From positions 2,431,001 to 2,495,000 of the forward strand of contig NZ_CP119676.1 of NCBI RefSeq assembly GCF_029318635.1: a stretch of 64,000 bases of DNA, read 5' to 3'. Below are positions 41,224 to 46,554 of this stretch, one piece after another. Every line of letters begins with the position of its first letter. Position 1 is the first letter of the stretch. The DNA comes from Varunaivibrio sulfuroxidans. Lineage in GTDB: Bacteria; Pseudomonadota; Alphaproteobacteria; Rhodospirillales; Magnetovibrionaceae. The notes under the pieces were generated by a model. The model saw only the letters and a program-made list of their open reading frames with translations, did no database searches and had not been told where the DNA came from. The position numbers and the translations under genes are program-made.

Positions 41224-41366
41224 GGCGAAAGCCTTGGATTCGCTCCCTCGCTGGCGTAGGCTTCAGGGAAAGGCGGGCGCGTGGTCCGCCGGTTCTCTTG
41301 AAGTGACGTCCGGGGCGCCGGACCCTGTGGTGCGTGACCGCCCGGACGCAGGGAAAGGAGGCAGGC

Positions 41367-43397
41367 ATGAGCGACAAAACGTCTCGTGCGCCCCGCTGCG
41401 CGGCTCTGATTGGCCCCTACCTCAGCGGCAAGACGACCCTCTTGGAAAGTTTGTTGCATAGCGCGGGAATCGTCCACCGTAAGGGGTCGGTGCGCGACGG
41501 CACGGCGCTCGGCGACACGTTCGCCGAAGCGCGCAAGCGCCAGATGTCCACCGAAGTGAATATCGCGCAGGGCGTATTTCTCGGCGACGCGTGGACCTTT
41601 ATCGACTGCCCGGGTTCGATCGAACTGGTGCAGGCCGGACGCGACGCCTTGCGGGTGGCCGACATCGCCGTTGTCGTCACCGAGGCGGATCCTGAAAAAG
41701 CGCTGATGTTGGCGCCGTACCTGCACATGCTCGACGAAATGGACTTGCCGCATATCCTGTTCTTCAACAAGATCGATAACAACTACAACGGCATTAAGGC
41801 CATGTTCGAGGCGGTGCAGGATATCAGCGTCCGTCCGCCGGTGCTGCGTGAAATTCCGATTCGCCAGGGCGACGCCGTCGCCGGCTACGTCGATCTGGTC
41901 AGCGAACGCGCGTTTAAATGGCGCGACGGCGCGCCGTCGGATTTGATCTCGATGCCCACCATCGTGGCGGCGCGTGAGGAGAGCGCCCGCGAGGAAATGC
42001 TGGAAACCCTGGCCGACTTCGACGACGCCCTGCTGACGGAACTTCTGGAGGACGTCACCCCGTCTCCGGCGGAGATTTACGATAATCTGGCGCGCGATTT
42101 GGCCCGGGACGTTGTCGTTCCGGTTTTTTTTGGTTCGGGCGAGCACGACCATGGGGTCAAGCGCCTACTAAAGGCCTTGCGTCACGAAACGCCGGAACCG
42201 GATGTTCGGGCGCGGCGCTTGAATGTTTCCGAAGCCGCGAACGCCACGCCCTTGGTTCAGGTTTTTAAAACCGTCCATTCCGGCCAAGGCGGTAAGGTGT
42301 CGATGGCGCGGGTCTGGCGCGGCGAAATCCTGGACGGGGCGAGCTTAGGGGGGGATCGGATCAGCGGGGTGTGGTCGGTGATGGGCGCGAAAATGCTCAA
42401 GAAAGACGGGCCGGCCGTCGTTGGCGACGTGGTCGGATTGGGTCGGCTTGAGGGGGCGCGTACCGGGGATATTTTGACGTCCTCGGGGGGCATGGCGCAG
42501 ACGGACGCTCTTTCACCATTGGAGCCGGTCTACGCCCTGGCGCTACGCCCGGCCAATCCTGGGGACGATGTCAAATTGACCGCGGCGTTGGGCCTATTGT
42601 GCGCCGAAGACGCGGCGCTGCGGGTCGTCGCCGAGGCGTCAACGGGAGAATTGCTCCTTCAGGGTCAAGGGGACGTCCATTTGGCGATTGCATTGGATAC
42701 GCTTGGCGATCGTTTCGGTCTCAAGATTGAGGCGACGCGGCCCAGGGTGCCCTATAAGGAAACCGTGCGCAAAAGCGTTACCCGACACGCCCGCCACCGC
42801 AAACAGAGCGGCGGGCACGGTGAGTTCGGTGATATCACGGTGGAAATCGCGCCCCTGCCCCGTGGTGGAGGGTTCGCGTTCGACGAACGGATCAGCGGAG
42901 GTCGTGTGCCTAAAAAATACATTCCCGCCGTGGAAAACGGCGTTATCGAGGCCTTGCGTAAGGGGCCATTGGGCTTTCCCGTGGTCGATTTGTCTGTGGT
43001 TTTGGTGGATGGGCAGCATCACGAGGTCGATAGCTCGGACATGGCGTTTCGCAAGGCGGCGGGGCTGGCTCTGCGCGAAGGCCTGAACGCCTGCGACCCG
43101 GTTCTGTTGGAGCCGATTTGCCGAGTCGTGATCGCCGCGCCCAGTCGTTATTCGTCCAACGTGCAGCGCGTCGTTAGCGCCCGGCGTGGGCAAATTCTCA
43201 GTTTTAATGCGCGTGAGAGCTGGAGCGGTTGGGATGAAATCGAGGCCTATATCCCACAGGCAAACCTTGACGATCTGATTGTTGACGTGCGTTCGCAAAC
43301 CGTTGGCGTGGGGACATTGCGCCAGAAATTCGACCACCATCAGGAATTGGTCGGACGCTTGGCCGATGAGGCCTGTCAGGAGCAGGGGCGGGCCTAA
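41367..43397 (+). CDS. EF-G-like translational GTPase (FusA2 type)
   Basis: The 676-residue protein has the domain layout of elongation factor G but a diverged G domain: P-loop GPYLSGKT instead of the usual A-H-x-D-x-GKT, then FIDCPG and FFNKID. Domains II-V follow (LVQVFKTVHSGQGGKVSMARVWRG, SGGHGEFGDITVEIAPL, SGGRVPKKYIPAVENGV). It belongs to the EF-G-like paralogues found beside canonical fusA, whose cellular role is unclear. GGAGG 6 bp before the ATG at 41367 fixes the start. The stop codon overlaps the terminator A/T tract of the small-RNA candidate on the other strand. Confidence 0.9.
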   Translation: MSDKTSRAPRCAALIGPYLSGKTTLLESLLHSAGIVHRKGSVRDGTALGDTFAEARKRQMSTEVNIAQGVFLGDAWTFIDCPGSIELVQAGRDALRVADIAVVVTEADPEKALMLAPYLHMLDEMDLPHILFFNKIDNNYNGIKAMFEAVQDISVRPPVLREIPIRQGDAVAGYVDLVSERAFKWRDGAPSDLISMPTIVAAREESAREEMLETLADFDDALLTELLEDVTPSPAEIYDNLARDLARDVVVPVFFGSGEHDHGVKRLLKALRHETPEPDVRARRLNVSEAANATPLVQVFKTVHSGQGGKVSMARVWRGEILDGASLGGDRISGVWSVMGAKMLKKDGPAVVGDVVGLGRLEGARTGDILTSSGGMAQTDALSPLEPVYALALRPANPGDDVKLTAALGLLCAEDAALRVVAEASTGELLLQGQGDVHLAIALDTLGDRFGLKIEATRPRVPYKETVRKSVTRHARHRKQSGGHGEFGDITVEIAPLPRGGGFAFDERISGGRVPKKYIPAVENGVIEALRKGPLGFPVVDLSVVLVDGQHHEVDSSDMAFRKAAGLALREGLNACDPVLLEPICRVVIAAPSRYSSNVQRVVSARRGQILSFNARESWSGWDEIEAYIPQANLDDLIVDVRSQTVGVGTLRQKFDHHQELVGRLADEACQEQGRA

Positions 43398-43538
43398 AAA
43401 AAAGCCGGGCCCAAGGCCCGGCGAAGTCAAAAGGGAGGTCTCACGTCTGGGAGACGCAAAAATCCTGATACGAGGGTCCGTGTCCAAAGGGGGGGAGAAG
43501 GACGGGAACACCTCATTGCTGCGTGGCAATATCAAGAC
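43396..43538 (-). ncRNA. Candidate small RNA A with C/U-rich anti-Shine-Dalgarno loops
   Basis: On the minus strand a promoter-like TGGACA-N16-TATATT (43571-43544) is followed by about 142 nt of non-coding sequence. This ends in GCCGGGCC-TTG-GGCCCGGC plus eight T (to 43396), a classic intrinsic terminator with no minus-strand gene upstream to serve. Visible structure from 5' to 3': hairpin ATTGC-CACGCA-GCAAT; hairpin GTGTTCC...GGACAC exposing CTTCTCCCCCCC; hairpin CGTCT-CCC-AGACG; single-stranded ACCTCCC; terminator. A paralogue lies about 300 nt upstream on the same strand. The C/U loops resemble those of alphaproteobacterial anti-SD sRNAs; expression is inferred. Confidence 0.65.
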
Positions 43539-43543
43539 GTCCT

Positions 43544-43571
43544 AATATAAGAAAAAACTGAAATATGTCCA
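43544..43571 (-). promoter_or_regulatory. Promoter of small RNA A
   Basis: TGGACA (43571-43566), a 16-bp spacer and TATATT (43549-43544) lie on the minus strand. Confidence 0.5.
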
Positions 43572-43697
43572 GAAAAAAATTAGGACATTGGAATTGATTG
43601 CCGTAAAGGGCTTCCGCGCAGTATGGCGTAGGGTGTATCGGCATGAACGGCTGCCGGGCATGCCATCTCTGGGGAAATTGAGGTGTACGGAGCGGAG

Positions 43698-43849
43698 AAA
43701 AAAAAGGCCGGGCACGAATGCCCGGCGAGTTTAACAGGGAGGCTTCACGTCTAGGAGACGTCGGACCCGTTCAACCCCAGGGAGGAGGAAGGGAACAGGC
43801 CCGTGTCGGGCTTGCGCCCGAGGGGTGATGTTGCAATGCAACATCGACA
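43698..43849 (-). ncRNA. Candidate small RNA B, paralogue of A
   Basis: A TATAGT -10 (43861-43856) precedes about 150 nt that repeats the architecture of RNA A. It has a perfect 5' hairpin GATGTTGC-ATT-GCAACATC and an extra GCAA-tetraloop hairpin TCGGGC-GCAA-GCCCGA. A 9-bp stem (GGGCCTGTT with AACGGGTCC, two G-U pairs) exposes CCCTTCCTCCTCCCTG. Then come CGTCT-CCT-AGACG, single-stranded GCCTCCC, and the terminator GCCGGGCA-TTCG-TGCCCGGC-C-T8. The third hairpin and the CCTCCC segment are almost identical to RNA A, so the two arose by duplication. The -35 is weak. Confidence 0.65.
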
Positions 43850-44173
43850 AGAGGGACTATACGTAAATTGACCCTTAGGGGCCAGCCTCTTTGTTGCAGT
43901 TCCGTTATGCGTTATGCGCATATCAATAAAAAGTAAAAGAAGAACCGTCATGCGCAATTTTAAGTGTCCCCGTTTGATCGCGAAGTCCTTCGCAAGCGGG
44001 CCCGATGCGGCGTGAAATGGGGATGAATAACGCGAAGTTCGATCTGTGGGGGCTTGGGGATGGGGCGCGGGCGGGGGTAAGGCGGCGTCATTCCAAACGC
44101 CCATATCGCTCCGAAACGATAACTCTGAGGTTGCGGAAGGCAAAGGTGCAAAAAGATGTCTTCGAGCGCATGA

Positions 44174-44190: not shown

Positions 44191-44333
44191 ATTAAACACA
44201 TTGCACATAATAAAAACGTATAAAATGCCCCTTATTTTTTTGCTGCATTGCAATAAATTATTTTTTTAAGGAACCGTTCTTGGACGCCCCTTATTGGCGC
44301 CCATCATCCCTCTATATACGGTTGGGGACGGAC

Positions 44334-44371
44334 ACTCACAAGCCGCCCGCAAAGGCGGGCGGCTTGTGAGT
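44334..44371. other. 17-bp perfect stem hairpin
   Basis: The arms 44334-44350 and 44355-44371 are perfectly complementary (ACTCACAAGCCGCCCGC and its complement) around AAAG. No T-run follows on either strand. It lies about 100 nt beyond the stop of the minus-strand gene at 44474. Confidence 0.7.
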
Positions 44372-44473: not shown

Positions 44474-44812
44474 CTAGCCGCGCTGAGGTCTGCTGATTTT
44501 CAGGCCGATTTCGGAGAAATAGTGCGCGTGTCCTTTGTGTTCGCTAGAGGTCATTAAGGAGGGGTACGTGCTGGTGCTCGCCACCATGGCGCTTAAGGAC
44601 TTAGCGTTCGGGTGGATGGCTCCCTGCCTGATTCGCGCAAAATATTGCGCGTGAGTCACGTGCTCGGAAGAGGGCATCAGGGTGCTCTGCCCAGACAAGG
44701 CGGCGCCGACGAGGGTGGTATTGTCGCTGGCCAACGCCGGAACGGCGGCAAGAGGCGCGGCGCCGGCGAGGATGGCGATGGTGACAAGGGCGTTTTTTGG
44801 GGAGGTTTTCAT
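44474..44812 (-). CDS. Small secreted protein with a duplicated SSEH..HA.YF motif
   Basis: I do not recognise this 112-residue protein. Residues 1-29 form a clear signal peptide (hydrophobic core LVTIAILAGAAPLAAV, cleavage after ALA). The mature part holds two copies of LM-x-SSEH-x-x-HA-x-YF-x-x-I at residues 45-61 and 86-102, 41 residues apart. The regularly spaced histidines and glutamate could bind a metal or heme, but no classical motif is present. AAGGAAA precedes the ATG, which supports real translation. It stands alone in AT-rich surroundings within a region of small unusual genes. Confidence 0.7.
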   Translation of the reverse strand: MKTSPKNALVTIAILAGAAPLAAVPALASDNTTLVGAALSGQSTLMPSSEHVTHAQYFARIRQGAIHPNAKSLSAMVASTSTYPSLMTSSEHKGHAHYFSEIGLKISRPQRG

Positions 44813-45943: not shown

Positions 45944-46237
45944 ATGATGGAATTAAACGTTGATGGTGAAGGATTTCTTGTCAACCGTGATGACTGGTCA
46001 CCGGAAGTGGCGAAGCAAATCGCCGCGAACGATGGCCGTGAGCTGACGCAAGAGCACATGAATTATATCTTGGAGGCGCGCCGCATATTCGAGGAAAACG
46101 CGACGGTGCCGCCGATTCGGAAATTCACCAAAGTCATGGGCGTGGACAAGAAACAGCTGTTCGATACCTTTGAAACGGGCCCTATGAAGTTGATCTGCAA
46201 GTGGGGCGGGTTGCCCAAGCCGACGGGGTGTGTGTAA
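45944..46237 (+). CDS. dsrC: DsrC/TusE family sulfur-carrier protein, CX10C type
   Basis: The 97-residue protein has the family sequence LNVDGEGFLVNRDDWSPEVAKQIA near the start and ends CKWGGLPKPTGCV. Both conserved cysteines are present: the penultimate C96 and C85, separated by ten residues. This distinguishes DsrC, which cycles persulfides or a trisulfide for dissimilatory sulfur enzymes, from TusE, which keeps only the last one. I chose the ATG at 45944 behind GGAGG; the next codon is also ATG. No dsrAB, tus or heterodisulfide-reductase-like genes are adjacent, so partners must be elsewhere. Confidence 0.85.
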   Translation: MMELNVDGEGFLVNRDDWSPEVAKQIAANDGRELTQEHMNYILEARRIFEENATVPPIRKFTKVMGVDKKQLFDTFETGPMKLICKWGGLPKPTGCV

Positions 46238-46332
46238 GGCCTTATTTTTCGAGGCGCTGGGATGCAACCCATCCCCCGCCATTGCGCCGCCGCGTTATAA
46301 GATCAAAAAGGCGCGCGACCTTCGAGAAAAAA

Positions 46333-46365
46333 ACAACGCCGCCTTTATCACGAAGGCGGCGTTGT
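46333..46365 (-). terminator. Hairpin downstream of dsrC
   Basis: A 13-bp perfect stem (46333-46345 with 46353-46365, ACAACGCCGCCTT) is preceded by an A-run, making a good terminator for minus-strand transcription. It could also end dsrC mRNA. Confidence 0.7.
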
Positions 46366-46417
46366 GCCGACTTTGGTTTCGCCGTGGGGTATTTCGGGGC
46401 CGATTCATTGTCGGCGA

Positions 46418-46554
46418 CCTAGTGGATCGACTCCGACGTTTCGCTCCCGCGAACCATCGGGCCGACCACTATCTATCTTTTTGTTGCAGGTTGATTTCTT
46501 CACACATTTGTGTCCAATTGCATCGGACTCAAATGTTAAACTCAAACCACTAGG
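46418..46554. mobile_element. 137-bp MITE-like element, copy 2 (inverted relative to copy 1)
   Basis: The reverse complement matches 35282-35418 with one difference (G for T at the GCAGGTTGATT position). CCTAGTGG and CCACTAGG bound the element, and CGA flanks both sides. It is non-coding. Confidence 0.85.

Follow-up and report, generated by a model that had tools for sequence, protein, structure and literature searches.

The stretch of DNA analysed here (the window) covers 64,000 nt of the Varunaivibrio sulfuroxidans genome, and inspection of its sequence identifies two predicted non-coding RNA genes, B and A, on the minus strand beside a convergent gene for an EF-G-like translational GTPase (Table 1). 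Each unit has a sigma-70-like -10 followed by a long stem with a pyrimidine-rich anti-Shine-Dalgarno (aSD) loop, and further 3' lie a CGUCU-CC(C/U)-AGACG hairpin, a single-stranded CCUCCC and a terminator made of a GC-rich hairpin and eight U residues. A preliminary description had recognised two paralogous, separately terminated minus-strand sRNA units of shared layout with two aSD segments apiece; our analysis confirms both units and finds that each folds with one aSD in a loop and one single-stranded. It was also right that RNA A ends on the stop codon of the EF-G-like gene, as the U tract of A overlaps the TAA at 43395-43397. Folding against dinucleotide shuffles gave the z values listed in Table 1, and 0 of 200 shuffles equalled either unit.

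Table 1. Features of the two RNA units, their third copy and the convergent gene (window positions unless a contig is named)
Feature	Position	Strand	Remarks
sRNA B	43698..43849	-	about 152 nt; start predicted from -10; R1 83.6 bits; fold z -5.8
LsrB-like box GCATAACGGAACT of B	43898..43910	-	49 nt 5' of -10, about -61; 1 mismatch to GCAT-N3-TG-N3-T
-10 TATAGT of B	43856..43861	-	operator spacing fixed at 21-22 nt across units
PhaR-type operator palindrome GATGTTGCATTGCAACATC, 5' end of B (putative)	43827..43845	-	perfect palindrome; consensus from PMC12542648
Operator core TGCATTGCA of B	43840-43832	-	within palindrome GATGTTGCATTGCAACATC
aSD1 of B, UUCCUCCUCCC	43780..43790	-	loop of long central stem
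Core hairpin CGUCUCCUAGACG of B	43748..43760	-	sequence and fold
aSD2 of B, AAGCCUCCCUG (single-stranded GCCUCCCUG)	43735..43745	-	sequence and fold
Rho-independent terminator of B	43698..43727	-	GC hairpin and 8 U
sRNA A	43396..43537	-	about 142 nt; start predicted from -10; R1 68.2 bits; fold z -4.4
-35 TGGACA of A	43566..43571	-	similar -35/-10 in relatives' A copies
-10 TATATT of A	43544..43549	-	16 nt (N16) 3' of -35 TGGACA
Degenerate PhaR-like palindrome ATTGCCACGCAGCAAT in A	43515..43530	-	1 mismatch to YGCRNYGCR; -10 spacing as in B
aSD1 of A, CCUUCUCCCCCC	43490..43501	-	long 5' stem exposes CUUCUCCCCCC
Core hairpin CGUCUCCCAGACG of A	43444..43456	-	sequence and fold
aSD2 of A, single-stranded GACCUCCCUUUU (ACCUCCC)	43429..43441	-	sequence and fold
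Rho-independent terminator of A	43396..43423	-	GC hairpin and 8 U
EF-G-like translational GTPase gene	41334..43397	+	NF009379, 921 bits; convergent neighbour conserved in order
Third copy B'	G000:C1:1888662-1888740	-	adjoins trxB-lysR

The statement that no coding gene lies upstream of the two units also holds, the nearest real minus-strand candidate (44474-44812) ending about 620 nt before the predicted start of B. The minus-strand ORFs that overlap A and B resemble shadow ORFs. We rejected a peptide encoded from a 5' ATG, since between this ATG and the core the three frames are random in relatives (13/13/12), with no conserved coding frame. Several other elements of the window were recorded. 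A PhaR-like palindrome with one mismatch, TGCTGCATTGCAATA, lies at 44241-44255 in AT-rich intergenic DNA, neither strand having a clear gene downstream of it, and a long near-perfect palindrome lacking a U tract, CTCACAAGCCGCCCGC-AAA-GGCGGGCGGCTTGTGAG, occupies 44337-44371, where the Hrs13 match is weak. The short ORF region at 46230-46553 is repeated elsewhere in the genome (L018:7961-8092, 93% over 44 aa; L130, same peptide string) and is a dispersed repeat, not a gene.

The covariance model and search in relatives that had been proposed as a check did return relatives: the model, R1, describes the 3' half and was constructed with 37 units drawn from the same order. It matches 224 of 248 genomes in the order and, class-wide, 150 of 289. 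An exact match to the core GACGTGA..CTCCC occurs in 31 of 41 genomes, own genome counted. Across relatives the almost invariant core reads CGUCUCCCAGACGUGAAGCCUCCCUGUU, and many families share CGTCTCCCAGACGTGAAGCCTCCCTGTT almost to the letter. Type A stands beside type B in other Magnetovibrionaceae as well. Selection on structure, which the preliminary description had suggested, finds covariation support in part of the molecule. Compensatory changes are found in the terminator and in the stem just 5' of the core, where the mean stem score is 9.4 (shuffles, 6.7) and p<=0.05 is reached by 52 of 128 non-redundant units, whereas the CGUCU/AGACG core hairpin is invariant and thus gives no covariation support.

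Across the class, the RNA gene lies just 3' of trxB and a LysR regulator gene and shares their strand; an Lrp gene lies farther on, and within the order the EF-G-like gene bounds the locus on the other side. The LysR gene is upstream on the same strand in at least 83 of 169 units, a count that rises when it takes in units that also lie near the EF-G-like gene, and TrxB follows farther out in stretches of sufficient length. The present genome has a split locus: the third copy, B', adjoins trxB-lysR and the pair A and B adjoins the EF-G-like gene. In the 3' module B and B' are 90% identical, and A is 75% identical to either. The neighbour of lsrB in S. meliloti is trxB. The AbcR1 and AbcR2 genes of S. 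meliloti occupy the intergenic region adjoining lsrB, and its PabcR1 promoter has an LsrB box at about -61 (PMC8844928). Among the units studied here, the box GCAT-N3-TG-N3-T occurs in 63 of 166, versus 2.5 in shuffles (maximum 8), and in 35 of the 74 units with a recognisable -10 the GCAT starts exactly 49 nt 5' of it, which corresponds to about -61. Both B and B' have the box at equal spacing with one mismatch each, and none was found upstream of A. One PhaR-less genome (L047; G027:C6:119445 and 123831) has two near-identical copies of the sRNA at a distance of 4.4 kb, neither with a consensus operator.

The 5' end of B carries a further signal. The PhaR (AniA) motif YGCRNYGCR was defined in S. 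meliloti; MmgR is a documented case of PhaR control in that species, with a site close to the mmgR start that has been proven (PMC12542648); AbcR is not mentioned in that study. The palindrome of B fits this motif 21 nt after the -10, B' fits it too, and A deviates by one mismatch. The operator is present in 26 of 35 type-B units versus about 1.0 in shuffles, and in most units showing both elements its start and the first base of the -10 upstream are 21-22 nt apart. A larger set has it in 59 of 82 units from PhaR-encoding genomes versus 5 of 27 from genomes with no TIGR01848 match, which we count as PhaR-less (Fisher p 2e-6), and R1 and PhaR co-occur class-wide (p 9e-13), although both values treat related genomes as independent and overstate that independence because the genomes are related and differ in size. 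The relation has exceptions in both directions, as those 5 PhaR-less units keep the site and 23 of the 82 units in PhaR-encoding genomes are without it. The 3.07-Mb genome encodes PhaR, PhaC and PhaZ, and it contains only three perfect TGYTGCRNYGCARCA sites, which precede B, B' and phaZ (identified by TIGR01849, 630 bits); a further operator core match lies upstream of phaR. Sites with one mismatch were no commoner in the genome than a reversed control, and therefore only the three perfect sites were used. As a separate observation, CGCTGCAGTGCAACA lies between a -10-like TATCTT and an ATG at G000:C1:2990740 (L131 1501-1515) and may mark another PhaR-controlled gene.

The preliminary description had seen a 5' hairpin in B. 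The palindrome is indeed present and folds, but from its sequence and distribution it is best explained as a putative DNA operator for PhaR. That it forms a strong 5' stem of B would also suit an RNA stability hairpin in which PhaR has no part, and yet we regard this as improbable: the letters of TGC-N3-GCA are conserved and not just their pairing, the spacing to the -10 is fixed, the motif recurs upstream of phaZ and phaR, and absence of the operator tracks PhaR loss. Moreover, in units without the operator a replacement 5' hairpin is significant in just 5 of 39, which argues for a DNA site over a pure RNA element, and a 5' hairpin kept solely for RNA structure was rejected for this reason. 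Far less credible still is that the hairpins just terminate or attenuate some longer transcript with a coding function, or serve to regulate the EF-G mRNA. The overlap between the terminator of A and the EF-G-like stop codon might suggest it, but A and B each carry promoter elements of their own, the core is conserved far beyond what terminators need, no coding frame is conserved, and the EF-G-like gene lies on the opposite strand.

Taken as sRNAs, A and B probably represent sibling, trans-acting members of the AbcR (ar15) lineage, with B gated by the PHB-sensing PhaR. It is the synteny and the promoter that place them there, since most relatives and, of the three copies in this genome, B' alone lie beside an lsrB/vtlR-type LysR gene. 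Their architecture agrees as well, and the AbcR motif M1, CUCCCA (PMC5461406), is found in the core hairpin CGUCUCCCAGACG of A and of most relatives, with CUCCUA in B. M2 (GUUCCC / UUCCCCUC) was not found, CCUCCCUG (CCUCCC) standing in its place. The Rfam comparison that had been proposed as a check was run, and the ar15 model (RF02345) has no match in the window or in the genome itself, so that the assignment to AbcR depends on synteny, promoter and architecture; as this model is above cut-off in 0 of 289 genomes of the class, it is itself narrow. The CcsR/cuckoo or ar14 type suggested in the preliminary description did not survive, because even with E allowed up to 5 no such Rfam model matches, and some hairpins are without the aSD motif, CCUCCUCCC being confined to one loop of B. 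A different possibility, which we consider unlikely, is that these RNAs belong to SorX (RF02784) or RFMSmelC671 in a broad sense, and so to a separate lineage that shares the lysR locus by chance. SorX is the best Rfam match in the window, although at 37.6 and 33.5 bits it stays below the cut-off of 46.6; it reaches the cut-off at two R1 loci (L097 and L290) and may thus be a related branch, and SmelC671 is described with a conserved CUCCCUGU between variable hairpins. However, SorX is processed from the ompR-1 3' UTR whereas these RNAs have their own promoters, L290 adjoins trxB-lysR, and on the S. meliloti chromosome SmelC671 and abcR1/2 reportedly lie some 1.3 Mb apart. A 6S RNA neighbourhood, looked for as a test of SmelC671, was not found at the loci in genomes of tentative family identity. 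A weak SorX-like element (27 bits) was noted directly 3' of hppA, the gene for an H+-pyrophosphatase, which has been reported as a target of SisA in Caulobacter (L018 4558-4629; G000:C1:590557-590628, minus strand). Very unlikely, in our judgement, is membership in the aR8 family (MmgR / SisA-D), the other PhaR-regulated aSD sRNAs of Alphaproteobacteria. In its favour, the suhB/mmgR model (RF00519) gives matches in the window of 27.7 and 27.3 bits, below the cut-off of 41, there is a CUCCCU core followed by ACU and a terminator, and mmgR has its PhaR site near the start. But the aR8 core is UUUCCUCCCU with an FGase gene as usual neighbour; this core is absent from the window units, which have GAAGCCUCCCUG / GAGACCUCCCUU instead and belong to the trxB-lysR/EF-G-like neighbourhood. 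We rejected membership because, in the 76 genomes with both an RF00519 match above cut-off and an R1 match, no locus is shared among those listed. One genus-level group contains three tandem aR8 copies (G280, G408 and G505; G280:C7:54432-55030 and equivalents).

For the preferred reading, that of AbcR-lineage siblings with B under PhaR, we infer a model that covers transcription of the RNAs, binding by PhaR, dependence on Hfq, repression of targets and the physiological timing. The promoter of B would combine an LsrB-like activator box with a PhaR operator just 3' of the start. When PHB is absent, free PhaR would occupy the operator and block transcription of B; when PHB granules form, PhaR would be titrated and B made. 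B could then pair through CCUCCC/CCUCCUCCC with the Shine-Dalgarno regions of many mRNAs and block their translation, probably with the involvement of Hfq. By analogy with known AbcRs, these targets would be transport and metabolic mRNAs, and both A and B probably shut off translation of nutrient-uptake and metabolic genes. RGGGAGGC precedes the ATG of 20 genes, versus 5 with a reversed control pattern, and is too unspecific a pattern to define targets. A has a similar RNA body and a different promoter, with no LsrB box and a decayed operator, and so would act as a repressor of the same type in different conditions.

On balance, we lean slightly towards a wider reading in which AbcR-lineage sRNAs are repressed by PhaR directly in a large part of Alphaproteobacteria, and siblings lose the operator on PhaR loss or promoter change. 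As part of this joint reading, and with the same modest preference, the CGUCUCCCAGACGUGAAGCCUCCCUGUU core would define an uncurated class-wide sRNA family. If this is true, the carbon-storage state would gate a global translational brake on nutrient uptake, a simple and testable link between carbon storage and the shutdown of nutrient import. For the symbionts and pathogens of this class, AbcR sRNAs are a leading case of global control over nutrient uptake, and they have been described mainly in Rhizobiales. If the RNAs studied here are of the same lineage, the AbcR core would be class-wide and absent from Rfam, and its promoter would unite the signal of a redox/metabolic LysR regulator with PHB storage through PhaR. 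Genomes that have kept or lost PhaR, with one or two siblings, also form a natural series for studying how sRNA promoters are rewired.

Compared with known systems, B and B' share with CcsR/cuckoo and ar14 (NfeR1) the CCUCCUCCC in one loop; in those RNAs, however, the motif occupies every loop of similar hairpins, whereas here conservation is highest at a single-stranded site. By its description, RFMSmelC671 (sm84, ReC71) shares with these RNAs a single-stranded conserved segment, CUCCCUGU, between variable hairpins and a 3' terminator. SorX resembles them in the order of hairpin, CCUCCCUGUU and GC terminator, and differs in being a processed RNA. The aR8 RNAs, MmgR of S. meliloti and SisA-D of Caulobacter, also have a short aSD core before the terminator and several siblings with separate promoters, and the PhaR site at the mmgR promoter recalls that of B, although core and locus are different. 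Set against AbcR1 and AbcR2 of S. meliloti, A. tumefaciens and Brucella, the RNAs here have CCUCCCUGUU as core in place of UUCCCCUC/GUUCCC, go undetected by the ar15 model and show an extra 5' PhaR-type operator, and A and B have moved to the EF-G-like locus in this genome. Like A and B, however, AbcR1 and AbcR2 are siblings, often in tandem, that differ in their promoters; they likewise combine a loop aSD with a single-stranded aSD in a strongly conserved stretch and carry CUCCCA in a hairpin, and their locus also adjoins an LsrB/VtlR LysR gene, with an LsrB box at -61 to -49.
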